Of a stretch of 64,000 nt of DNA, positions 21,551 through 34,664 are shown one piece after another; positions within the stretch are counted from its first letter, which is position 1; the number at the start of each line of letters is the position of its first letter. This DNA is from Stenotrophomonas maltophilia. GTDB taxonomy: Bacteria; Pseudomonadota; Gammaproteobacteria; Xanthomonadales; Xanthomonadaceae. The DNA is taken from NCBI RefSeq assembly GCF_006970445.1, contig NZ_CP033877.1, positions 1,496,750 through 1,560,749 on the forward strand, written 5' to 3'. The notes under the pieces are model-generated. The model ran no database searches. It had not been told where the DNA came from and worked only from the letters and a program-made list of their open reading frames with translations. A program made the translations under genes and the position numbers.

Positions 21551-21654
21551 GCCAGCTCCGTCGGGTCCGATGCAACGAATGTAACGCAGCCGCGTCACGG
21601 CGGAGTCGCGGCGGCCCCGGTATAACCAAGGCTTGTTGAATGTTGGAGCTTCCC

Positions 21655-23151
21655 ATGGCCGATTCCCCCGACCGCAGTCATTGGCAGGCGCTGGCCCTCC
21701 AGCTGTCGATACCCGGCCAGGCCTTCATCGATGGCCGCTATGTCGATGCCGCCAGCGGCGCCCGCTTCGACTGCATCAGTCCGATCGATGGCCGCGTGCT
21801 GGGCGCGGTCGCCGACTGCGACGCGCAGGATGTCGAGCGCGCGGTACGGGCTGCGCGACGCAGCTTCGAGGCGGGCCACTGGTCGCAGGCCACTCCGGCC
21901 CATCGCAAGCGCGTGCTGCTGGCACTGGCGGCATTGGTGGAAGCGCACGCCGACGAACTGGCCCTGCTGGAAACCCTGGACATGGGCAAGCCGGTGCGCG
22001 ATGCGCGCCGCATCGATCTGCCTGGCGTGGTGCGCTGCCTGCGCTGGACCGCCGAAGCGGTGGACAAGCTGTACGGCGAGGTCGCGCCGACCGGCCCACA
22101 TGAGCTGGGGCTGGTCACGCGCGAGGCCGCGGGTGTGGTGGCGGCCATCGTGCCGTGGAATTTCCCGCTGCTGATGGCCTGCTGGAAGATTGCGCCGGCC
22201 TTGGCCATGGGCAACTCGGTGGTGCTCAAGCCATCCGAGCGGTCGCCGCTGAGTGCGCTGCGGTTGGCGGCGCTGGCCGCCGAGGCTGGGCTGCCGGAGG
22301 GTGTGCTGAACGTGCTGCCGGGCCACGGTGCGCGCGTCGGTGAACCGCTGGCCCTGCACATGGATGTGGACGTGCTGGCCTTCACCGGCTCCACGGCCAC
22401 CGGGGCGAAGCTGCTGCAGTATTCAGGGCGCTCCAACCTCAAGCGGGTATGGCTGGAGTGCGGTGGCAAGAGTCCGCATGTGGTGTTTGCCGACGCCCCT
22501 GATCTGGATGCCGCCGCCAAGGCGGTGGCACAGGGCATCTTCTTCAACCAGGGCGAAGTCTGCACCGCCGGTTCGCGGTTGCTGGTGCAGCGTTCGATCC
22601 GTGAGGATTTCGTGCACCAGGTGGTTGCCTACGGCCAGCACATGCAGCCGCAGCATCCGCTGCAGGCCGATGCGCCGATGGGCGCGCTGGTGGATGCCGC
22701 CCACCTGGCCAAGGTGATGGACGATATCGCACGCGCCGAACGCGAGGGCGCCCGGTTGCTGCTGGGTGGGCGGCGTGCCGAGGTGGAAGCCGGCGGCAGC
22801 TACGTGCAGCCCACCGTGTTCGACCAGGTGCGGCCGGAGCAGGCATTGGCACGCGAGGAAGTGTTCGGGCCGGTGTTGGCTGTGCTTGGTTTCGAGGACG
22901 AGGCCGAAGCGGTGCGCGTGGCCAACGACAGCCGCTATGGCCTGGCCGCCGGCCTGTGGACGCGCGATCTCGGTCGCGCCCATCGCGTCGCCCGCCAGCT
23001 GCGCGCCGGCAGCGTCTGGGTGAATGGCTGGGATGGCGGCGACATGACCGCCCCGTTCGGTGGCTACAAGCAGTCCGGCAACGGCCGCGACAAATCGCTG
23101 CATGCGTTCGACAAGTACAGCGAGATCAAGGCGACCTGGATCCAGCTGTAA
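21655..23151 (+). CDS. puuC: Aldehyde dehydrogenase, PuuC/gamma-glutamyl-gamma-aminobutyraldehyde type
   Basis: NAD(P)-dependent enzyme of 498 residues that likely oxidises an aminoaldehyde from polyamine breakdown. The general base E268 (LECGGKSP) and the nucleophile C303 (NQGEVCTAGSR) are in place, along with the VPWNFPLLM and KPSERSPLS cofactor motifs. The length, NxGxxCxAGSR form and YSEIKATWI C-terminus match PuuC-type enzymes. The start at 21655 has GGAG six bases upstream; an ATG at 21640 would lie before that site. Divergent from the aminotransferase. With puuA, puuB and puuD about 8 kb away it would complete the gamma-glutamylputrescine route. Confidence 0.82.
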   Translation: MADSPDRSHWQALALQLSIPGQAFIDGRYVDAASGARFDCISPIDGRVLGAVADCDAQDVERAVRAARRSFEAGHWSQATPAHRKRVLLALAALVEAHADELALLETLDMGKPVRDARRIDLPGVVRCLRWTAEAVDKLYGEVAPTGPHELGLVTREAAGVVAAIVPWNFPLLMACWKIAPALAMGNSVVLKPSERSPLSALRLAALAAEAGLPEGVLNVLPGHGARVGEPLALHMDVDVLAFTGSTATGAKLLQYSGRSNLKRVWLECGGKSPHVVFADAPDLDAAAKAVAQGIFFNQGEVCTAGSRLLVQRSIREDFVHQVVAYGQHMQPQHPLQADAPMGALVDAAHLAKVMDDIARAEREGARLLLGGRRAEVEAGGSYVQPTVFDQVRPEQALAREEVFGPVLAVLGFEDEAEAVRVANDSRYGLAAGLWTRDLGRAHRVARQLRAGSVWVNGWDGGDMTAPFGGYKQSGNGRDKSLHAFDKYSEIKATWIQL

Positions 23152-23313
23152 CGACACCTGGCTTTGCGCTCGCCTGCAGGGCCGAGCCCTGCTCGACGCT
23201 AAAGGAGAATGGCGCCTGCCCCCTCGTTGGCATCGGTGTCGGCTGAAACCATCGTCCCGTGCGGCCGCCAGCCCGTGGCAGAATCGGGCGATCCGCCGTT
23301 ACCCGTGTTGCCG

Positions 23314-24616
23314 ATGTCGACGATCACCGCTGCCGCGCCGCCCGTGAATTCCCCCAGTCGAGTCCTGCTGGCCAGCCTGATCGGCACCACCATCGAGTTC
23401 TTCGATTTCTATATCTACGCCACGGCTGCAGTGCTGGTGTTTCCGCACCTGTTCTTCCCGGACAGCAGCGAACAGGCAGCCCTGCTGCAGTCCTTGGCAA
23501 CGTTCGCGGTGGCGTTCATCGCGCGTCCGGTCGGCTCGGCGGTGTTCGGCCACTTCGGTGACCGCATCGGACGCAAGGCCACCCTGGTAGCGGCGTTGCT
23601 GACCATGGGCGTGTCCACGGTGCTGATCGGCCTGTTGCCGACCCATGCGCAGATCGGGCTGTGGGCACCGGCGCTGCTGGCGCTGTGCCGTTTCGGCCAG
23701 GGCCTGGGGCTGGGGGGGCGAGTGGGGCGGGGCGGTGCTGCTGGCCACCGAGAACGCGCCGCCTGGCAAGCGCGCCTGGTACGGCATGTTCCCGCAGCTG
23801 GGTGCACCGCTGGGCTTCCTGCTGTCGGCCGGTATCTTCCTGGTGCTGGGCCGCTGCCTGAGCCAGGACGATTTCCTGCAGTGGGGCTGGCGCATTCCGT
23901 TCGTGGCCAGCGCGCTGCTGGTCGGCCTCGGCCTGTGGGTGCGGCTGAACATCCACGAGACCCCCGACTTCAAGAAGGCGCTGGAACAGAAGGCGCCGGT
24001 GCGGCTGCCGATGCTGACGGTGCTGCGCGACCACCCGGTGCCGATGCTGCTGGGTACGCTGGGCGCCTTTGCCACCTTCGTGCTGTTCTACCTGATGACG
24101 GTGTTCAGCCTCGGCCACGGCACGGCGGTGCTGGGCTACAGCCGCGAGCAGTTCCTGCTGATGCAGATGGCCGGCATGCTGTTCTTCGCGCTGGGCATCC
24201 CGCTGTCGGCGCGCTACGGCGACCGCTGGGGCACGCGCCGCACGATGATCGTGGCCAGCGTGCTGATCATCGGTTTCGGCGTGCTGTTCGCGCCGCTGTT
24301 CCAGCCGCACAGCCCGTGGCTGGTCACCGCCTTCCTGTGCCTGGGCCTGTTCCTGATGGGCCTGACCTACGGCCCCTGCGGCACCTTCCTGGCCGAGATC
24401 TATCCGGTGGAGGTGCGCTACACCGGCGCCTCGCTGTCATTCAACCTGGCCGGCATCCTTGGCGCCGCCCCCGCGCCCTACCTGGCCACCTGGCTGGCCG
24501 AGCGCTTCGGGTTGGTCGCGGTGGGCTACTACCTGTGCCTGACCGCGGTGGCGACGCTGTGCGCGCTGGTGGCACTGCACCGGCGCGCGCTGCGGTTCAG
24601 CCAAAGAAGCGCTTGA
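23314..24616 (+). pseudogene. MFS transporter (metabolite:H+ symporter type) interrupted by a frameshift in a G7 run
   Basis: The coding sequence of a 12-helix major-facilitator transporter is split between two frames. The first part has the family start (LLASLIGTTIEFFDFYIYAT) and the loop motif GHFGDRIGRKATLV; the second continues in another frame with GGEWGGAVLLATENAP and goes on to the normal C-terminus. The break falls at seven consecutive G (23712-23718); six would restore the conserved GLGLGGEWGGA. So either one G was inserted in a real mutation, the tract varies in length, or the run was misread. Intact, it would be a KgtP/ProP-like importer of an organic acid or osmolyte. Its 3' end overlaps the hemerythrin gene tail to tail by 20 bases. 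Confidence 0.85.
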
Positions 24617-25058
24617 GCGTGCGGCCCAGCCAACCACCGCCCTGGTGCTCGCGGGTGAACTGGTTCAGGTGCGCCTTGACCTGTTCGGCGTAGGCCTGGT
24701 CGTCGCCGCGGATGTGGTTGAACAGCCAGCGCGAGAGCATGGTGCGCAGTTCGTCGCTGATGTCCTCGCCGGCCTGGAAGCGCAGCCGGTACTCGGCCAC
24801 GCGCTTGATGAAGATTTCATGCACGCGCTTGTGCGCGGCACAGAACGGGTAGCCCGCTTCCTCCATCAGCTCTTCCTCGAATGCGAAGTGCGACATGGTG
24901 TAGTCGACCACCTCGTCGATCACTTCACCCACCGCTGCACGCTGCAGGCTGGTCTGCGCCACGTGCAGGTGGTTGAGCATCTCGATGATGCGGCGGTGTT
25001 GTTGGTCGATCACATCGATGCCGATGTTCAGATCGTCCTGCCAGACCAGTAGTGCCAT
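24597..25058 (-). CDS. Bacteriohemerythrin (single-domain O2-binding di-iron protein)
   Basis: A 153-residue cytosolic four-helix protein with all seven di-iron ligands of the family in order: H21 (DQQHRR), H57 and E61 (HFAFEE), H76 and H80 (HKRVH), H115 and D120 (HIRGDD). It likely binds oxygen, or senses or detoxifies oxygen, NO or iron. A C-terminal tail of about 20 residues ([14 protein letters not shown]) adds a basic amphipathic end. The start at 25058 follows GGGAG. It is next to a diguanylate-cyclase response regulator on the same strand, though no shared transcript is evident. Confidence 0.92.
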
Positions 25059-25143
25059 CCCCGGCTCCCCTTCATGCGTATGTCGGGGCCGACTGTAGAT
25101 CCGCCGCGCATGGGCGGCGTTGATCTGGATCAAAGCGCGCCGC

Positions 25144-26487
25144 TCAGGGCAGGGCGGGCTCGCGTGGGCGCAGCGGGCTGGCCACCGTGGTGCAGCTGAC
25201 CCGGTTGCGGCCGCCGGCCTTGGCCAGGTACAGCTGGCGGTCGGCCTCGGAGATCAGCCGGTGCAGTGCGTCGCGTTGCGGACGCAGGCAGCACAGGCCG
25301 ATGCTGACCGTCATGCGCAGGGTGGCAGTGCCGATGTCCACTTCCAGCGCGGCGATGCGCTGGCGCAGTTCCTCGAAGTACAGCACCGCCTCGTCCTGTT
25401 CCATGTCCGGCACCAGCAGGCAGAATTCCTCGCCGCCGAACCGCGCGATCAGGTCGTGGCTGCGTGCATGCGCGGCCACCGCGCCGGCCACCGCGCGCAG
25501 CGCATCATCGCCGGCTTCGTGGCCGTGGGTGTCGTTGATGTGCTTGAAGTGGTCGATGTCGATCATCGCCACCGCCACGCACTGGCCGTGCAGCTGGAGC
25601 TGCGGCAGTTGGCGCTGGCTCTGCTCCAGGAAGAAGCGCCGGTTGGGCAGGCCGGTAAGGAAGTCGCGGGTGGCCAGATCCTGCAGGGTGCCGATCAGTT
25701 CCAGCTGATCCACGTTCTGCGAGACACGGCAGAAGAATTCCTCGCGCGAGAATGGCTTGCGCAGGAAATCGTTGGCGCCGTTCTTCAGGAAGCGCGGGAT
25801 CAGTGAGGCGTCGGTATTGCCGGAGATGCCGATCACCGCCACCTTGTCGCGCGAGCGCAGGGTGCGCAGGCGGCGGGTGAACTCCACGCCCTGCATGCCC
25901 GGCATTTCCTGGTCGACCACGGCCAGGCGGATCGCAGGGTGCGCTTCGATCGCAGCCAGTCCTTCGTTGCCGTCGGCCGCTTCGTGGACCTCATGGCCAT
26001 ACATGCGCAGCAGGGCCGCGGCATAGCCGCGTGCGGAAGGCGAATCGTCCACCACCAGTGCGGCGATGCGACGGTTGCGTTCCAGGCGCTGCACCAACCA
26101 CACCAGGTAGTCGATGCTGCCCGGCGTGTTCTTCAGCACGTAGTCGATGATCTGCTGCTGCAGCACGCGCTTGCGCAGGTCCTCATCGTAAACGCCGCTG
26201 ACCACCACCGTCGGCAGGTCGCGCTTGAGGAAGAATTCGACCACCGCATCGCGGTCGCCGTCGGCCAGGACCAGTCCGGTCAGCACCAGGAACCAGCCCC
26301 CACCTTCGCTGAGCAGGCGGTCGGCCTCGGCCAGGGTGGACGCGATCACCACCGGCAGTTCCAGGCGCTGCTCGATGGCTTCGCGCAGCATGCCGGTGAA
26401 CGCACGGGAGTTTTCGACCAGCAGGATCCGCTGTGGCAGCGGATCGGCCAGGTCGCCATCGACGGCGGCCTGCGGCAGGACGGGCAT
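25144..26487 (-). CDS. Two-receiver diguanylate cyclase (REC-REC-GGDEF)
   Basis: A 447-residue response regulator that should make cyclic di-GMP. REC1 (about 20-135) is degenerate: the phospho-accepting aspartate is replaced by T70 ([12 protein letters not shown]). REC2 (about 142-258) is complete, with D147/D148, acceptor D192 (VVDQEMPG) and K244 (LRKPF). The GGDEF domain (about 275-430) has [10 protein letters not shown], an active signature GGEEF at 351-355 and an RxxD product-inhibition site RSHD at 342-345, five residues before it. The start at 26487 precedes the first receiver strand closely. It lies 95 bases downstream of a MASE1 membrane protein on the same strand, its probable partner. 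A decayed copy of its REC1-REC2 junction is at 28250-28495. Confidence 0.92.
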
Positions 26488-26582
26488 GATGCGGTGGCTC
26501 ACGAGGGAGGGGCTCGGCACGGATAGCGGCGGTTTCGGGCGCAACTTTAGCGGAGCGGCGTGCCCTGCGCGTCGTTCGCCGA

Positions 26583-28145
26583 TCAGGCAGGCGATGCGAA
26601 TGCCGCCGCTGTACCCGCAATCGATTCGTGCAGGACAAGCCGGAGCCGGTTGCCACGGCAATGCACCGTGCCGCCGTAGGCCATTAAACGGCCGGCCAGA
26701 CGCTCGGTGGCCTGCTGAACGGTCCGGTTCGACAGCGTGCAACCGCGGTCAAGCAGGCCCACGACCACCACGATGCCGCGGCGGTCGCCAGCCTGGCCGC
26801 TCCGGGCGCGCACGCTGACCTGCCCCGACTCCAGCTCCAGCAGCAGCGACACCGCCTCGATCAGCGAGCGGTAGATGGCGAGCTGCAGGTCCACAGTCAG
26901 CAGGCAGGGGTTGCCCTCCAGCCGGGGCGGAATCACGCGATGGGAGTTGTCCCAGTTCTCGCACGCGCCGCCAACCCGCAGCGCGATATACAGCCCAACC
27001 TGCTCCAGCCCCGTGGGGTAGACCAGACTGGCCTGTTCACGGAACAGCCGCGAGTGCACGGATGAGGCATGCTGCAGGCTGTTGGCCACCGCATGATGCC
27101 CCTGCGCCTTCAGCCAGCTGACCATCTCGCCGAGCGAGCTGTCCATGCCTTCGCCGAGTTGCTTGAGATGGGAAGCGCGCTCGCGAAGCTCACGCTCACG
27201 GGTCTGGTCCGAACTACGTGCCAAGCGCAACGTGGTTTCCTCTGCCAGTCCACGGGCCCGTGCACGCTCATGGTGATAGCTGATGCTGGACCCCAGGGCG
27301 AGCAGTGCGACACTCATCACGGCCATGTTCTGCTGGGTGGCGAAGGTGCCCAGGTCGAACGAGGACGGTAGGCCGGTGCTGGGTGTGGCGAAATGGAGTG
27401 GAAGGTTCAACAGCGGAATCGCGATGGCGGCGCCACGCCACCCATGCATGAAGGTCAGGGCGATCGCTGGGAGGGAGGACAGCAGAACCAGATGGGTGCG
27501 TGTGGTGTGGCCGCTGATGGCCGTAAGTTGCATGCACAGGCCCAGGGCCAGCATCACCAGGATGGCCGTGACCGTAGGCGCAGCAAAGCGGCGCATCCAA
27601 TTGGGGGCCGCGTGTCGTCGCGACCAGAGGAATGCCAACGGCACGAGGGTGATGATGGCGGCGAAGTGGCCAAAGATCGTGCGATCAACTGCGCTAAGCA
27701 GGTTGCTCGGCGGCGGGTTCGACCACAGAGCAAATGAAATGCCCATATTGAGTGCCGGGACGAACAGCGCCATGCAGAAGGTCAGCGACAGCAGCCAGAG
27801 GCCGGTGGCGGACTCCGATGGCATTCTCATGCGATGCAGGTAGACCACCAGCATCGCCACCGGCATCAGCAGCGTCGAGGCCAGGATGACCCAGGCCAGG
27901 CCGTAGCTGTCGATCATGGGGATGCGCAGGGTTGCGAAGTACGCGTACTCGCCAAGCAGCAGGTAGGGCCACAGGCGGGTCGGGGCGATCAGCAGTGCCG
28001 CTGCCCGGATGCCCGCAGGCAGGAAGAACTGATCCAGCGAGAACTGACGCGAGGCAAGGCAGCCCAGGGCGTAGACGGCCGCGAGTGCGATTCCGACGGG
28101 TCGGATCCGGAAGCTCAGTTCAATTGCTTCTTTGAATCGGTCCAA
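26583..28145 (-). CDS. MASE1 membrane protein with a degenerate histidine-kinase-like C-terminus (copy A)
   Basis: A 520-residue protein. The first ~290 residues are a MASE1-type sensor region with about eight membrane helices and the signature SLDQFFLPAGIRAAALL (36-52) plus WPYLLLGEYAYFA. The remainder looks like a NarL-family kinase core that has lost its chemistry. Where the family has L-H-D-G-L it reads L-G-E-G-M (330-334), so the phospho-accepting histidine is a glycine. In the N-box-like YRSLIEAVSLLL the ATP-binding asparagine is L434. The start is a TTG at 28145 with AGAGG upstream, aligned with the paralogue at 29253-30845. It probably signals to the adjacent diguanylate cyclase by contact rather than phosphotransfer. 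Domain names rest on pattern recognition only. Confidence 0.78.
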   Translation of the reverse strand: MDRFKEAIELSFRIRPVGIALAAVYALGCLASRQFSLDQFFLPAGIRAAALLIAPTRLWPYLLLGEYAYFATLRIPMIDSYGLAWVILASTLLMPVAMLVVYLHRMRMPSESATGLWLLSLTFCMALFVPALNMGISFALWSNPPPSNLLSAVDRTIFGHFAAIITLVPLAFLWSRRHAAPNWMRRFAAPTVTAILVMLALGLCMQLTAISGHTTRTHLVLLSSLPAIALTFMHGWRGAAIAIPLLNLPLHFATPSTGLPSSFDLGTFATQQNMAVMSVALLALGSSISYHHERARARGLAEETTLRLARSSDQTRERELRERASHLKQLGEGMDSSLGEMVSWLKAQGHHAVANSLQHASSVHSRLFREQASLVYPTGLEQVGLYIALRVGGACENWDNSHRVIPPRLEGNPCLLTVDLQLAIYRSLIEAVSLLLELESGQVSVRARSGQAGDRRGIVVVVGLLDRGCTLSNRTVQQATERLAGRLMAYGGTVHCRGNRLRLVLHESIAGTAAAFASPA

Positions 28146-28249
28146 GCCCGCGCCTCTTGTCTCCCGGCCAATGATGACTGGCCGCTTCCGCAGACATTAT
28201 CGACAGTTGGAGATGGGCGCAATCGAGGTGTCAGGCCTCTCTTTGCGCT

Positions 28250-28495
28250 GCAATCGGCGGCCTCCCATGCTTCGTGGCCCTGCACGCCCGGCAGTGCGGC
28301 GGCATAGCCACCCGCGGACGGTGAATCATCCACAATCAGCGCGCCCGCAGGGCGATCGCGTTTCAGTCGTTGCACCAGCCACATTCGGCGGTTGATGCTG
28401 TCCGCTGTGTTCTCCATCACACAATCGACGATATCCTGCTGTTGCACGCGCTTGTGCGGGTCCTTGTCGCAAATGCCGCTGACCCGCGCCGTCGG
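28250..28495 (-). pseudogene. Remnant of a second response regulator (REC1-REC2 junction)
   Basis: The minus-strand frame encodes about 82 residues clearly homologous to residues 92-172 of the intact response regulator at 25144-26487. Shared features include the SGI/VxD...KRVQQQ segment, the [16 protein letters not shown] stretch, WLVQRL, and VDDSPSAxGYAAAL. It lacks a start, the acceptor aspartate region, and the whole GGDEF domain. It runs directly into the upstream edge of MASE1 copy A. It marks a partly deleted duplicate of the [MASE1 - response regulator] pair. Confidence 0.82.
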
Positions 28496-28667
28496 CGGAT
28501 TTCACTGCGGGTATTGGCGATTTCGGACGCAGCTTCGGCGTGGCATGGGTTTGCATCGATCCAGTGGATTATGTCCGATAGGCACTGCGGAGTCTGCCCG
28601 GTATATGCTGATGTGATTGGCGGTAGCATCCTTCTTGATCCGTATTGCATCCAACCTGGAGGTTAGT

Positions 28668-29093
28668 GTGAGAAGTTTCCGAATTCATGCATTTGCTGGT
28701 GCATTGATGTTGGTGCCGGTATCCGTTTTTGCTTTTGCCCCGAGTGACGACCATGGAATCAAGATGGCCGGGCAAGGACTCGGCCAGTCGATTCCGCAGG
28801 CGCAAGACCTGAGCGTGGATCCCGGCTGGTTGGTCTATGGGTTCGAGCGCGATGGCATGGATTATTTCCAGGTAAATGATCTCGCGGGCCGCGTGCACAT
28901 CGTGATCGGCAATGCTGCCGGCACGTTCTGGGTGCTGCCGGCAGGTGACCCATCTGCGAAGGTGTCGTTGCCGGAGCAGCGCCTGCCTGTTCCCGCCAAA
29001 GCCATCAGAACGGTTGTCTATCGGACCCCCGCATTCACTCTGGTCAGATATGCAAGCGGAGCGGATGTGTTGTGGGCGGTAGAGGCACCCTGA
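28668..29093 (+). CDS. Secreted protein of unknown function in a less GC-rich stretch
   Basis: I do not recognise a family. The 141-residue product starts at a GTG at 28668 with GGAGG five bases upstream. It has a Sec signal (RSFRIHAFAGALMLVPVSVFA, cleavage near residue 23), then a mature part of about 118 residues without cysteines or membrane helices and with several beta-like stretches (HIVIGNAAGTFWVLP, IRTVVYRT). It lies on the opposite strand from all signalling genes around it, in a locally lower-GC segment between the response-regulator remnant and MASE1 copy B, where it may have arrived when the duplicate was broken. A strong hairpin follows at 29139-29168. Confidence 0.7.
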   Translation: MRSFRIHAFAGALMLVPVSVFAFAPSDDHGIKMAGQGLGQSIPQAQDLSVDPGWLVYGFERDGMDYFQVNDLAGRVHIVIGNAAGTFWVLPAGDPSAKVSLPEQRLPVPAKAIRTVVYRTPAFTLVRYASGADVLWAVEAP

Positions 29094-29138
29094 TACTGCC
29101 TGTTGCCGGGATATCGGCGAGCTTCAGTATCAGACTGC

Positions 29139-29168
29139 ATGGGCACCCGGTGTTCGCCGGGTGCCCAT
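29139..29168 (+). terminator. Strong hairpin after the unknown secreted-protein gene
   Basis: A 12-base perfect stem (29139-29150 with 29157-29168) with a six-base loop, 45 bases after the stop codon. No T run follows, so intrinsic termination is likely but not certain. Confidence 0.55.
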
Positions 29169-29252
29169 GACGCCCTGGGCCAGGGGGATGAGCGGGACGC
29201 TTATGCGATTCCGCTGCGTTGGTCCGATCCGGTCGCTTGACTGTGAAATGCA

Positions 29253-30845
29253 CTACTGCAGCGCAGAGGGTGCGGGGCAGCTGTACCGCGATGGAGTGCT
29301 GGGCACTGTTTCAAGTTTGGTTTCGCGGTCGAGGAACAGAATCCTGACCCGGTTGCCATAGCAGTCAACAGTCCCGTCATAGGCGAGGGTTCGCCCGGTC
29401 AGTCGCTCGAACGCGGCCATGGTTGTCTGCTGGGAAAGGCGCCGACGCGACTCCAGCAGCGACACGACCATGAGGATTCCGCGCCTGGAGCCCATTCCGC
29501 CGCACCTTGCACGAATGCGAATCTGGCCACCTTCATGCTTGAGAAGAATGGAGACCGCATCAATGAGTGTCCGGTAAGCGGCCAACTGCAGTTCCACGCT
29601 CAGGTTGCAGGGGTCGCCTTTCAGATCCGGGCGGAGAACGCGCTCCGTCAGCTTCCATGACTCACGGATGCCACCCGCCTGCAAGGCCACGTAAAGCCCA
29701 AGATGCTCCAGGCCCGAGGGATAGACCATGCTTGTCTGTTCGCGGAAGAGCCGCGAATGTACATTCGAGGTATGCAGTAGGCTGCTGGCCACTGCGTGAT
29801 GTCCCTGGGCCTTGAGCCAGTCGGCCAGCTCAACCAGCGACGTATCAATGCCGTCGCCGAGCTTGCGAAGGTGCAGGGCACGCTCGCGCAGCTCCATCTC
29901 GCTGGCCAATTGCGAGCTCCTCGCAAGATGGATGGCGTCCCTTTCCCCCATCTCGCGCAGCCTGTAACGGTGGTAGAAGTGGGTGATGCGTGATCCGAGC
30001 AGCAGCAATACGATGCCGCTGATCGCCATGATCTGCTGGGTGATGAAGGCCGCGGGATCGAATGCGGTTGGATGGGTGTTGGGCGTGGTCAGGCCGATGA
30101 CCATGTTGAGCACCGGTACTGCAAGGGCAGCACCCTTCCAGCCATACAGGCAGGTAAGTGCGGCCGCGGGGAGTGCCAACAGCAGCAGGAACGTTGCCTT
30201 CAATGCAATCCAGTCTGCGGGCAGTTGAGTCGCTGCTATCCCGATCAGCAGCATCGATGAAAGTGCTGCCAGCATCGGGGTCTTTCGTCGAGCGTTCCAC
30301 TCCTGCCCCACGTCCTGTCGCGCCCACAGCATGGCGATGGGGGCCACCGTCAGAATGCCGATGAAATCACCCACGCTGAAGCGCGCGGCATTGGTCAGGA
30401 AGGGCGTGGAAGGAGGTGTTGGCCAGAGCAGATGGGAAAAGCTGAGGTTGAGCAGAGTAACAACGACGCTGGAAGCGGCGGCAATCAACAAGAGGCCGAT
30501 CGTCTGCGACTCCGCCATCAGTCGTCGTTGCAGCTTCACAATCAGCATCACTGCTGGCATGAGGAATGCGGAGGCAACAATGACCCATGTCAGGCCGTAC
30601 TTCTCGATCATCGGCACGCGGGACTGTGCAAAGTACGCATATTCGCCCAACAGCAGGTAGGGCCACAGGCGCGGCGGGCACAACAGCACGGCTGCCACCC
30701 GGATGCCGGCTGGCAAATAGAACTGATCCAGCGACAGTTGTCGGGTTGCCCAATAGGCCACTGCATAAAGCAAGGCCAGCATCAGGCCAGCCGGACGAAT
30801 GCGCACCTTCAGCAACAATCCTTCTTTCCACCAGTCCAATCGCAC
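29253..30845 (-). CDS. MASE1 membrane protein with a degenerate histidine-kinase-like C-terminus (copy B)
   Basis: A 530-residue paralogue of the protein at 26583-28145, similar along its full length (for example SLDQFYLPAGIRVAAVLL, WPYLLLGEYAYFA and LKAQGHHAVASSLLHTSNVH). As in copy A, the kinase-like half reads L-G-D-G-I where a phospho-accepting histidine is expected, and its N-box-like YRTLIDAVSILLKH has no asparagine. The His/Arg-rich GHHAVA...VHSRLFREQ block and the cysteine-containing GDPCNL/GNPCLL segment are kept in both copies, so selection appears to act on them. I start at a GTG at 30845 with GGAG eight bases upstream; an ATG at 30881 is possible. Its own response regulator survives only as the remnant at 28250-28495. 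Confidence 0.76.
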   Translation of the reverse strand: MRLDWWKEGLLLKVRIRPAGLMLALLYAVAYWATRQLSLDQFYLPAGIRVAAVLLCPPRLWPYLLLGEYAYFAQSRVPMIEKYGLTWVIVASAFLMPAVMLIVKLQRRLMAESQTIGLLLIAAASSVVVTLLNLSFSHLLWPTPPSTPFLTNAARFSVGDFIGILTVAPIAMLWARQDVGQEWNARRKTPMLAALSSMLLIGIAATQLPADWIALKATFLLLLALPAAALTCLYGWKGAALAVPVLNMVIGLTTPNTHPTAFDPAAFITQQIMAISGIVLLLLGSRITHFYHRYRLREMGERDAIHLARSSQLASEMELRERALHLRKLGDGIDTSLVELADWLKAQGHHAVASSLLHTSNVHSRLFREQTSMVYPSGLEHLGLYVALQAGGIRESWKLTERVLRPDLKGDPCNLSVELQLAAYRTLIDAVSILLKHEGGQIRIRARCGGMGSRRGILMVVSLLESRRRLSQQTTMAAFERLTGRTLAYDGTVDCYGNRVRILFLDRETKLETVPSTPSRYSCPAPSALQ

Positions 30846-31070
30846 GTCCCCCTCTCCTACGCGTCCCCTGTCAGCATCCATTCGCCGCGGGGCCCGGTTT
30901 CTCAGGACGGTATCGGTCTGCGAACGATTATGCAATTGCACAGCTGCGCATTTAGGGAATTGACCAACCATCCATCACAGATATTGTGTGAAAATCTGTG
31001 ACGTGTGCAGCATGATCGGCGCTGCGGTGCGCTTGTCAGAACGTTCAATACAGGTGGAGATGCAGAATCT

Positions 31071-32348
31071 TCACCATAACGCATCCCGCAGCTTGTACCA
31101 GGACATCGCCGCCACCAGCAGCGGCGTGCGCAGCAGCCGGCCGCCGGGGAAGGGCGCATGCCGCAGGCGCTGGAACACGTCCAGGCGTTCGCTCTGGCCG
31201 GCAATGGCGGCGGCGATCACCTCGCCGGCCAGCCCGGCGGCGGCCACCCCATGGCCGGAGAAGCCCTGCGCGAAGTACACGTTGCCGTCCAGCCGGCCCC
31301 AATGCGGGGCCCGGTTGCGGGTAATGTCGACGTAGCCGCCCCAGACCTGGTCCAGTGCCACGTCGGCCAGCTGCGGGAACACCTGGTGCATGCGCCGCTG
31401 CATCACCCCACGCAGGCCGGGTGGGGGCAACGCCGAGTAGCTGGCGCGCCCGCCAAACAGCAGCCGATGGTCATGGCTGAGGCGGAAATAGTCCAATGCC
31501 CAGGCGGTGTCGGCCACGGCCATGTCGTTGCCGATCAGGGCGCGGGCGCGCTCGGCCCCCAGCGGCGCGCTGGCGCCGATATAGGTGCCGACCGGCATGA
31601 TCCGGCGTTCCAGCTCGGGCAGCAGGCCCTGCAGCCAGGCATTTCCGGCCACCACCAGATGCGCGGCGCGTACGCTGCCCTGCGCGGTGTGCAAGGTGGG
31701 CTGCGGTCCGCGCTGCACGCGGGTTACCGCCGAATCCTCGTGGATCACCACGCCGGCCGCGCGCGCCGCATCGGCCAGGCCGCGCGCATAGGCCAGCGGG
31801 TGCAGGTGCGCGCTGAGCGGATCGAACATCGCGGCGCGATAGCGCGGGCTGTCCAGCTGCGCGCGCAGGACGTCACGCTCCCACCATTGCATGGGGTAGT
31901 CGTAATGGCGTTGCAGGTGCTCGCAGTTGGCCCGCAGCTCGCGCTCATGGCGTTCGCGGATGGCGACGCTGGCGTGGCCTTCCACCCAATGGCAGTCAAT
32001 GCCGTGGCGATTGATGCGTGTGCGCATCGCCTGCACGGCGTCGCGCGACCAGTCGAACAGGTGGCGCGCATCATCACGACCGAGCTGACGCTCCAGCTCA
32101 TCCACCTCGCAGCCGTAGCCGACCAGCGCCTGGCCACCATTGCGGCCGGACGCGCCCCAGCCGATCCGCTGCGCGTCCAGCACTACCACGCGCCGGCCAC
32201 GTGCGGCCAGTTCCAGGGCTGCGGTCAGGCCGGTATAGCCAGCGCCCAGCACCGCGACATCGGCCTGCACATCCCCTTGCAACGAGGGCAGGGCGGGCGG
32301 TTCGGGCAGGCTGGAGGCATACCAGCTGGGCGGGAAGGCGGCGCTCAC
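31071..32348 (-). CDS. puuB: FAD-dependent amine oxidoreductase, gamma-glutamylputrescine oxidase type
   Basis: A 425-residue DAO-family flavoenzyme predicted to oxidise gamma-glutamylputrescine to the aminoaldehyde. The N-terminal dinucleotide fold AVLGAGYTGLTAALELA (about 32-48) and GWGASGRNGGQ (63-73) match PuuB/glycine-oxidase relatives, as does the FAD-closing QGFSGHGVAAAGLAGEVIA near the C-terminus. The start is a GTG at 32348 with GAGG six bases upstream. It is divergent from puuD-puuA with 160 bases between, which must hold the promoters. Tryptophan-rich PSWYASSLPEPP at the N-terminus is also typical of PuuB. Confidence in the substrate comes mainly from the neighbours. Confidence 0.88.
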   Translation of the reverse strand: MSAAFPPSWYASSLPEPPALPSLQGDVQADVAVLGAGYTGLTAALELAARGRRVVVLDAQRIGWGASGRNGGQALVGYGCEVDELERQLGRDDARHLFDWSRDAVQAMRTRINRHGIDCHWVEGHASVAIRERHERELRANCEHLQRHYDYPMQWWERDVLRAQLDSPRYRAAMFDPLSAHLHPLAYARGLADAARAAGVVIHEDSAVTRVQRGPQPTLHTAQGSVRAAHLVVAGNAWLQGLLPELERRIMPVGTYIGASAPLGAERARALIGNDMAVADTAWALDYFRLSHDHRLLFGGRASYSALPPPGLRGVMQRRMHQVFPQLADVALDQVWGGYVDITRNRAPHWGRLDGNVYFAQGFSGHGVAAAGLAGEVIAAAIAGQSERLDVFQRLRHAPFPGGRLLRTPLLVAAMSWYKLRDALW

Positions 32349-32508
32349 TGCAGGCCTCGCGGGTGCAGGGCGGGAGGGCGGAGCGGGGCAGGTCGATCAG
32401 CGTTCACCCCGGTAGTTTCGCCGATGCGTGACGGCCGTGGTGTGACGGCACCGACTTGCCGCCGTCGCCGGGCGACGGGTAACGTGTCGGCACGCCAAGG
32501 AGTTTTCC

Positions 32509-33270
32509 ATGCGCCGCCTGCCCTGGGTGGGCCTGCCCACCGACAGCACCGTGCTCGGCCATCACCGTTTCGCGGTGGCCGGCGAGAAGTACGTGCGCGC
32601 GCTGGCCGAGGCGGCCGAGGTGACTCCGGTAGTGTTGCCAAGCCTGCAGCCACCGCTGCCGGCCGGCGACTGGCTGCAGGGGCTCGATGGCCTGCTGTTG
32701 ACCGGTGCAGTCAGCAATATCGAACCGCAGCACTATGAAGGTGGTCGCAGCTGGCCAGGCAATCCGCACGACCCGGCCCGTGATGCCAACGCGTTCGCGC
32801 TGCTGCAGGAAGCGCTGGCGTTGGACCTGCCGGTGCTGGCGATCTGCCGCGGCTTCCAGGAATTGAATGTGGCACTGGGCGGCAGCCTGCATCCGCAGGT
32901 GCATGCGGTGCCCGGCCTGGCGGATCATCGTGAAGATCCGCGGGCGCCGGTGGACGTGCAGTACGGGCCGGCGCATGCGGTGACGCTGGCCGCCGATGGC
33001 TGGCTGTCGCAGTGGCAGGGGGGCGATCGCGTGCAGGTCAATTCGGTGCACGGGCAGGGCATCGCCCGCCTCGCGCAGGGCCTGCAGGTCGAGGCCCGGG
33101 CCGATGACGGGTTGGTCGAGGCGGCACGCAGCCTGCACCATGGTTTCGTGCTCGGCGTACAGTGGCACCCGGAGTGGCGTGTCATGCAGGCGCCGTTCTA
33201 TCACGCTATTTTCCGTGCGTTCGGCCAAGCTTGCCGGCAGCACCAACAGAACCGACTGGATTCCCGATGA
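32509..33270 (+). CDS. puuD: Gamma-glutamyl-gamma-aminobutyrate hydrolase
   Basis: Class I glutamine-amidotransferase-like hydrolase (peptidase C26) that releases GABA and glutamate from gamma-glutamyl-GABA. In 253 residues the nucleophile is C113 (LAICRGFQELN), with H220 and E222 in GVQWHPEW. GDWLQGLDGLLLTGAVSNIEP is the family's oxyanion region. AAGGAG-like sequence precedes the ATG. Its final four bases overlap the puuA start (ATGA), so the two enzymes that close and open the gamma-glutamyl cycle are translated together. Confidence 0.93.
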   Translation: MRRLPWVGLPTDSTVLGHHRFAVAGEKYVRALAEAAEVTPVVLPSLQPPLPAGDWLQGLDGLLLTGAVSNIEPQHYEGGRSWPGNPHDPARDANAFALLQEALALDLPVLAICRGFQELNVALGGSLHPQVHAVPGLADHREDPRAPVDVQYGPAHAVTLAADGWLSQWQGGDRVQVNSVHGQGIARLAQGLQVEARADDGLVEAARSLHHGFVLGVQWHPEWRVMQAPFYHAIFRAFGQACRQHQQNRLDSR

Positions 33271-34664
33271 GTTCCCGAACGCGCCCGCGCAAGACGGCCA
33301 CGCCCCCCGCACCGCAGGAAAGCAGCCTGCTGCGCTGGTTGAAGGAGCGGCGTATCACCGAGGTCGAATGCCTGGTGCCGGACATCACCGGCAACGCGCG
33401 CGGCAAGATCATTCCCGCCGACAAGTTCTCGCATGACTACGGTACGCGCCTGCCCGAAGGCATTTTCGCGACCACCGTCACCGGTGAGTTCCCTGACGAC
33501 TACTACGAGCTGACCTCGCCGTCGGACTCGGACATGATGCTGCGCCCCGATCCGGACACGGTGCGCATGGTGCCGTGGGCGGCCGACGCCACCGCGCAGG
33601 TCATCCACGATTGCTATACCAAGAATGGCGAGCCGCACGAGCTGGCGCCACGCAACGTGTTGCGCCGCGTGCTCGCGGCCTATGCCGAACTGGGCCTGCG
33701 CCCGGTGGTGGCGCCGGAGCTGGAGTTCTTCCTGGTGCAGAAGAACACCGACCCGGACTTCCCGCTGCTGCCACCGGCCGGCCGCTCCGGGCGCCCGGAA
33801 ACCGCGCGGCAGTCGTACTCGATCGACGCGGTCAACGAATTCGACCCGATCCTCGACCTGATGTACGACTACGCCGATGCGATGAAGCTGGACGTGGACA
33901 CCCTGATCCATGAATCCGGCGCAGCGCAGCTGGAAGTCAACTTCACCCATGCCGATGCGATGGACCTGGCCGACCAGGTGTTCCTGTTCAAGCGCACCAT
34001 GCGTGAGGCGGCGATGCGCCACGGTGTCTATGCCACGTTCCTGGCCAAGCCGATGGAGAACGAACCGGGCAGTGCCATGCACATCCACCAGAGCCTGGTG
34101 CGGGTGAGCGATGGCAGCAACGTGTTCGCCGGTGAGACCGATGCCGAGGGCGAGTTCAGCCCGGTGTTCGGCCACTACCTGGGCGGCCTGCAGAAGTACG
34201 TGCCGCAGGCGATGGCGTTCTTCGCGCCGAACGTGAACTCCTATCGGCGGCTGGTGTTCGGTGAGGTCTCGCCGAGCAACGTGCACTGGGGCTATGACAA
34301 CCGCACCTGTGGGCTGCGCGTGCCGCTGGACACGCCGGAGAACATGCGCGTGGAAAGCCGTTTCGCCGGGTCCGATGCCAATCCCTACCTGGCGATGGCC
34401 GCGACCCTGGCCTGCGGCCTGCTCGGCATCCGCGAGCGGCTGGCGCCGGATGCGCCGGTGACCGGCAGCGCCAAGGAACTGGGCTACAACCTGCCGCGCT
34501 CGCTGGGCGAGGCGCTGGACGGGCTGGAGCAGTGCAGCGAGCTGCAGGCGCTGCTGGGCGAGCGTTTCTGCCGGGCCTACATCTCGGTCAAGCGCAAGGA
34601 ATACGAGACCTTTTTCCGTGTCATCAGCTCGTGGGAACGCGAGTTCCTGCTGCTGAACGTCTGA
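33267..34664 (+). CDS. puuA: Gamma-glutamylputrescine synthetase (glutamine synthetase family)
   Basis: ATP-dependent ligase joining glutamate to putrescine, the first step of the Puu route. The 465-residue protein has the glutamine-synthetase fold: a short beta-grasp part (about 20-110), then the catalytic barrel with APELEFFLV (metal and ATP site), NFTHADAMDLAD, GSAMHIHQSL and SRFAGSDANPYLAMAA. The opening EVECLVPDITGNARGK is typical of PuuA/GlnA-like ligases that use amines rather than ammonia, and the adenylylation loop of true GlnA is missing. It overlaps puuD by four bases. potF follows after 91 bases. Confidence 0.92.
   Translation: MSSRTRPRKTATPPAPQESSLLRWLKERRITEVECLVPDITGNARGKIIPADKFSHDYGTRLPEGIFATTVTGEFPDDYYELTSPSDSDMMLRPDPDTVRMVPWAADATAQVIHDCYTKNGEPHELAPRNVLRRVLAAYAELGLRPVVAPELEFFLVQKNTDPDFPLLPPAGRSGRPETARQSYSIDAVNEFDPILDLMYDYADAMKLDVDTLIHESGAAQLEVNFTHADAMDLADQVFLFKRTMREAAMRHGVYATFLAKPMENEPGSAMHIHQSLVRVSDGSNVFAGETDAEGEFSPVFGHYLGGLQKYVPQAMAFFAPNVNSYRRLVFGEVSPSNVHWGYDNRTCGLRVPLDTPENMRVESRFAGSDANPYLAMAATLACGLLGIRERLAPDAPVTGSAKELGYNLPRSLGEALDGLEQCSELQALLGERFCRAYISVKRKEYETFFRVISSWEREFLLLNV

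Follow-up and report, generated by a model that had tools for sequence, protein, structure and literature searches.

What can a membrane protein built like a sensor kinase do once the residues for phosphotransfer are gone? The question is raised by a locus of Stenotrophomonas maltophilia that we analysed in a window, the whole stretch of 64,000 nucleotides, which is part of a single-contig genome of 4.55 Mb. Read along the minus strand, the locus begins with a gene for an FAD-dependent amine/amino-acid oxidoreductase (31071-32348, minus), the edge of an apparent insertion site, followed by MASEb (29253-30845, minus; 530 aa, with a longer frame from an ATG at 30971), a small gene on the plus strand, a decayed fragment of a second cyclase copy, MASEa (26583-28145, minus; 520 aa), a diguanylate cyclase gene and a hemerythrin gene (24597-25133). 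MASEa and MASEb are 51% identical. The oxidoreductase/cyclase pair sits in a cluster (21640-34664) resembling those for degradation of gamma-glutamylated amines (putrescine), with PuuC-like, PuuD-like and glutamylpolyamine-synthetase-like genes that all score under the model cut-offs. A transporter gene of the MFS metabolite/H+ symporter type is split over two plus-strand frames (23209-24693 and 23645-24616); the frame change, placed by eye near 23720, is a frameshift or a sequencing error.

A first-pass annotation of this DNA described two MASE1 proteins with a NarL-kinase-like C-terminal half lacking the phospho-accepting His and the N-box Asn, and both fold matching and alignments bear this out. 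Pfam MASE1 matches the two window proteins at 42 and 62.7 bits (cut-off 29.8; E 4e-17 for MASEb, which has no kinase Pfam match) and all 24 members tested of the family to which they belong, here called MASE1-X (E <= 1). Models of the C-terminal half are predicted by fold matching to contain a DHp/CA kinase fold of the NarL/DesK type. The profile check that the annotation had proposed for these halves found HisKA_3 or HATPase_c in none of the 24; in six MASE1-HisKA_3 proteins taken from that family sample for comparison, HisKA_3 was above cut-off in five, HATPase_c in three and the H-box His kept in four, the reference "kinase" set being itself mixed, with an H-box His in 4 of 7 proteins. Gln or Glu replaces that His in three MASE1-HisKA_3 proteins (L068:3936-5612, L069:7930-9672 and L072:5653-7422), which are possible intermediates between true kinases and pseudokinases.

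Across 124 MASE1-X sequences there is no conserved phospho-His in the H-box, and the N-box Asn occurs in 0 of 121; in a sister family all 20 proteins carry E, K or D at the H-box position, never His (0/20), and the N-box Asn is likewise missing (0/18). Catalytic residues elsewhere in the fold would have counted against the claim of the first-pass annotation. On this point, a nearby His confined to Stenotrophomonas (39 of 56 sequences there, 0 of 68 others) could be a modified site. The core motifs are conserved across all 124 sequences and dN/dS between close alleles is 0.08-0.19, indicating purifying selection. MASE1-X proteins combine, in other words, a kinase fold, the loss of key catalytic residues and retention by selection, the features that delimit pseudo-histidine kinases. 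The alignments support reading these C-terminal halves as degenerate kinases of the NarL/DesK type that purifying selection maintains, which makes signalling by contact without phosphotransfer plausible. No cognate response regulator was apparent, in that a receiver protein was never a constant neighbour in the loci surveyed; the exceptions are the Stenotrophomonas cyclase, which carries receivers, and an OmpR-type regulator about 3 kb away in one locus (L045). A MASE1-X fragment 63% identical to a window protein lies on a contig labelled Bacillus subtilis SK7B5 (L140), possibly through contamination.

Judged from gene neighbourhoods, the usual companion of MASE1-X is a small, apparently exported protein and not the cyclase. 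Its gene in the window (28668-29093, plus strand; 141 aa, family A2, in an ORF open from a TTG at 28617), overlooked in the first-pass annotation, lies tail to tail with the upstream MASE1 gene, MASEb, an orientation in which no operon is possible. The protein begins with what looks by eye like a Sec-type signal peptide, hence its apparent export, and is confidently modelled as an all-beta domain (pLDDT 84.9) with strands between residues 55 and 139. Searches by sequence and by fold gave no convincing relative in Pfam, NCBIfam or the PDB, where the sequence matches were at chance level. Clustering of neighbours in 40 loci and the window, based on crude gene calls, found this partner beside MASE1-X in 29 of the 35 pseudokinase loci; a profile search added it in L038, L051, L052, L054 and L060, leaving L041 as the locus without it.

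The pairing holds in larger samples. Among 149 genomes of the family, 22 carry MASE1-X (best E below 1e-37), and the partner is found in 21 of these 22 and in none of the other 127; a further 24 genomes had weaker MASE1-X matches (E 5.7e-20 or worse), and six of their loci, when opened, proved to encode MASE1-HisKA_3 proteins, partly degenerate. In Stenotrophomonas the partner occurs in 60 of 91 genomes, all among the 66 with MASE1-X and none among those without, and 79 of its 86 matches are within 1.5 kb of a MASE1-X match, the other seven being six weak ones (E 2e-18 or worse) and one on a different contig. For 118 full-length Stenotrophomonas MASE1-X genes, the partner is convergent and directly downstream in 66 and farther away in 10, on the upstream side in 22 (mostly of the MASEa type), on the same strand in 3, and missing within 2.5 kb in 17. 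An order-wide sample of 299 genomes gave MASE1-X (E <= 1e-50) in 61 and the partner (E <= 1e-8) in 76, including 59 of the 61 (all except G169 and G326) and 17 genomes of the sister family that have no MASE1-X at this strict cut-off. All 20 sister-family loci opened, which were picked from MASE1-X matches and not at random (G326 is not one of them), contain the convergent pair. The partner was absent from all of the roughly 364 genomes sampled from the class outside the order.

The two genes are also closely packed, with a median gap of 1.5 nt over 98 convergent pairs (82 distinct) from loci that yielded 131 frames for MASE1-X and 103 for the partner. MASE1-X without the partner is found in 6 of the 66 Stenotrophomonas genomes, in G099 and in G326, and MASEa copies beside the cyclase, as in the window, have no partner gene of their own. 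Weak partner-like genes also occur away from MASE1-X. In four Stenotrophomonas loci (L199-L202) they have no signal peptide by eye and lie beside PhzF-like genes, three of the four also with cysteine-dioxygenase-like genes (names by eye); the neighbours of these paralogues gave no functional lead.

We suggest, with a probability of about one half, that these genes form a mobile module of two genes with diverse alleles, whose exported protein and MASE1 pseudokinase signal without phosphotransfer. The suggestion draws on sequences and models for the anatomy, the loss of catalytic residues, the kinase fold, pairing, orientation, plasmid carriage, divergence, purifying selection and module-free sites. 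Set between the oxidoreductase and cyclase genes, the module would work as follows. The beta-protein, if exported as its signal peptide by eye suggests, would act in the periplasm or outside the cell; the MASE1 membrane domain would sense it or be controlled by it, presumably through physical interaction, with the signal presumed to run inwards; the change would travel via a long helix (residues 264-346) into the DHp/CA-like body of a presumably dimeric protein, a body that would act without ATP-binding or phosphate-carrying residues; and a protein in the cytoplasm, perhaps a true kinase or a regulator, would read its state by contact. Should the module prove to signal, it would be a widespread system that works without phosphorelay, has an exported partner and is unusually diverse in its alleles; the small size of the gene pair allows direct testing.

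No conserved cytoplasmic output gene was found. Lysobacter-type loci have an upstream gene for a helix-turn-helix/S24-like regulator (weak Pfam match, below cut-off) and CsrA-like genes nearby, which may be local outputs. CsrA-like proteins occur near the module in L040, L042-L045, L057, L059, L060, L063, L066 and L067, two per locus in 8 of the 11; the one tested by Pfam scored 65.9 bits, and some of these loci also contain Rhs-type genes, recognised by eye.

MASE1-X might instead, in the style of RetS and GacS, inhibit or activate as a subunit a genuine kinase whose gene lies elsewhere; the exported protein would then be its ligand, and the output would pass through the phosphorelay of that kinase. 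The DHp-like hairpin that MASE1-X is predicted to keep is consistent with such a role, as are the RetS and DivL kinase regions among its fold matches, and loci L056, L062 and L065, and by clustering also L061, have a hybrid kinase close to the module. Against this, clustering of the 40 loci revealed no kinase as a constant neighbour, and we regard the arrangement as possible, if unlikely.

The history of the two-gene module bears on a different kind of alternative. A plasmid collection yielded 19 Xanthomonas records with a MASE1-X match and 19 with a partner match; among the matches listed, all 10 partner plasmids are within the 15 MASE1-X plasmids, and both plasmids that were opened have traN on one side of the pair and an integrase gene on the other. 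On chromosomes the pair diverges far beyond its surroundings. Of 28 Stenotrophomonas loci with the pair, 24 have both flank genes and 18 belong to the S. maltophilia complex (oxidoreductase at least 90% identical to that of the window); in these 18, protein distances average 0.34 (MASE1-X) and 0.46 (partner), compared with 0.055 for the oxidoreductase and 0.027 for the cyclase. Distances of MASE1-X and partner are correlated with each other (r = 0.66, partial 0.67, 0/2000 permutations, n = 18), a correlation of which physical linkage alone would explain part, and those of the pair are uncorrelated with those of the flanks (r = -0.04 to 0.09, n = 18). For the distant alleles L034 and L088, dS is 1.6-1.9 in MASEb and partner, the L088 partner being saturated, and 0.26-0.34 in the flanks. 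Since close alleles have low dN/dS and distant ones high dS, the divergence probably reflects the exchange and retention of old alleles, not rapid evolution in place.

Such old, strongly divergent alleles in a conserved locus are what one might expect of recognition or immunity between strains, with the exported protein a polymorphic effector or signal and MASE1-X a strain-specific receptor or immunity protein. Several MASE1-X copies per genome, carriage on plasmids and Rhs-type genes (by eye) nearby in six Lysobacter-group loci fit this too. The partner, however, has no toxin-like family or fold match, the defence library gave only chance-level matches, and MASE1-X varies alike in both halves (mean identity 0.66 in MASE1 and 0.69 in the C-terminal half), a comparison that revealed no obvious recognition patch; we consider this reading distinctly unlikely. 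A broader version, in which beta-protein and MASE1-X form an order-wide, mobile, multi-allelic ligand-receptor system, co-diversify as specificity types by which neighbouring cells or strains recognise each other, and are read out by contact, is speculative, and we hold it at low confidence. An anti-phage system was also considered and rejected: matches in the defence library reached only E 0.03, and a phage collection searched with one family member gave no match.

The cyclase (25144-26487, minus; 447 aa) is as the first-pass annotation had it, with a receiver 1 lacking its Asp, an intact receiver 2 and a GGEEF motif, and with its REC-REC-GGDEF order, single phosphorylatable receiver and I-site it is of the PleD type. 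The annotation further proposed that the MASE1 pseudokinases and this pseudo-receiver cyclase could be a dedicated pair signalling by contact. Proximity favours that view: in 57 of the 66 Stenotrophomonas genomes with MASE1-X, no more than 3 kb separates it from the cyclase, and MASEa ends 95 nt ahead of the cyclase start. The remaining 9 of the 66 genomes do not have the two adjacent, however, and the cyclase belongs to the core genome, being present in 86 of the 91 Stenotrophomonas genomes, 20 of them without MASE1-X. Its receiver 1 has the sequence LTGLVL in the window, as do 9 of 9 other cyclases aligned, including four whose genomes have no MASE1-X, so that it is equally Asp-less without the supposed partner. 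The annotation had itself named lack of co-occurrence as grounds for giving up the pair, and outside Stenotrophomonas a motif scan of 32 loci (432 kb), 31 with MASE1-X and L055 with a true kinase instead, revealed no GGDEF gene in any of them. An intact receiver 2 would moreover need a true phosphodonor. We find a dedicated pair very unlikely.

Sites free of the module point to another origin for the proximity. The oxidoreductase gene directly precedes the cyclase gene in 9 of 11 distinct module-free loci: in L079 and in all eight fetched, where 71-152 nt separate the aligned ends and the stretch between oxidoreductase and cyclase contains neither MASE1-X nor partner. These eight come from five Stenotrophomonas genomes without MASE1-X and three Xanthomonas genomes (two GTDB genera) with the module elsewhere; the other two loci, L081 and L082, have no oxidoreductase within 1.5 kb upstream of the cyclase. 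The adjacency in 57 of 66 genomes looks like the legacy of one ancestral insertion, and given the module-free sites, the unchanged receiver 1 and the lack of GGDEF genes in loci elsewhere, the module was most likely inserted once between the oxidoreductase and cyclase genes in Stenotrophomonas. The closeness of MASEa leaves a local link to the cyclase possible, and the recurrent oxidoreductase-cyclase order hints at a link between polyamines and c-di-GMP at this site. The decayed cyclase fragment (28246-28496, minus; from the receiver 1/receiver 2 region, 73% nucleotide identity to 25965-26215) recurs in L083, L084 and L111, of which L111 has no MASEa, and was not found in nine other loci tested.

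That MASE1-X genes are simply decaying, functionless kinases, as stops or fragments in some copies might suggest, is extremely unlikely given dN/dS of 0.08-0.19, core motifs conserved in 124 sequences and retention with the partner across the order.

In Xanthomonas, all 30 MASE1 loci examined (of 57 MASE1 matches in 20 genomes) match the MASE1-X C-terminal profile and none matches the kinase-end profile; in a longer class of 13 loci, the four opened all carry GGDEF in the same frame. The passages available of one study call a Xanthomonas "MASE1 sensor kinase" UhpB-like and report that a transposon mutant of X. citri XAC1778, so named, has lowered EPS and motility and altered LPS (PMC3130047). 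Because all 30 loci belong to MASE1-X, XAC1778 is probably a member as well, by elimination. Expression of the MASE1 protein XC_2013 of X. campestris shifts in a mutant of a YajQ-family effector, according to the passages available (PMC4199771). The titles, abstract openings and passages that we surveyed contain no description of MASE1-X paired with an exported partner.

Among known systems, UhpB and the MASE1-HisKA_3 sensor kinases are close in architecture, with MASE1 followed by NarL/DesK-type DHp and CA domains; MASE1-X differs in having no conserved phospho-His or N-box Asn, and in that its constant neighbour is an apparently exported protein and not a response regulator. DivL, RetS and RcsD are HisKA-type or phosphotransfer proteins, and to our knowledge none is tied to an exported partner; MASE1-X, in contrast, is a HisKA_3-type family, multi-copy and found on plasmids as well as chromosomes. 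All three resemble MASE1-X in retaining the fold without the full kinase chemistry. Passages of one account treat pseudo-histidine kinases as a recognised class (PMC12632262). The neighbouring cyclase shares its REC-REC-GGDEF domain order with PleD and CbrR (the CbrR model scores 225.7 bits, below its cut-off of 600), but in PleD, as given in passages of the same account, the receiver precedes the pseudo-receiver (PMC12632262); the order is reversed here, with a pseudo-receiver first and the intact receiver second. A MASE1 domain that takes direct protein input is described for E. coli DgcE with RdcA and RdcB (PMC6510439); the partner in that case is a GTPase, and DgcE itself carries the GGDEF domain that gives the output, whereas MASE1-X would listen to an exported beta-protein and speak through a kinase-like body.
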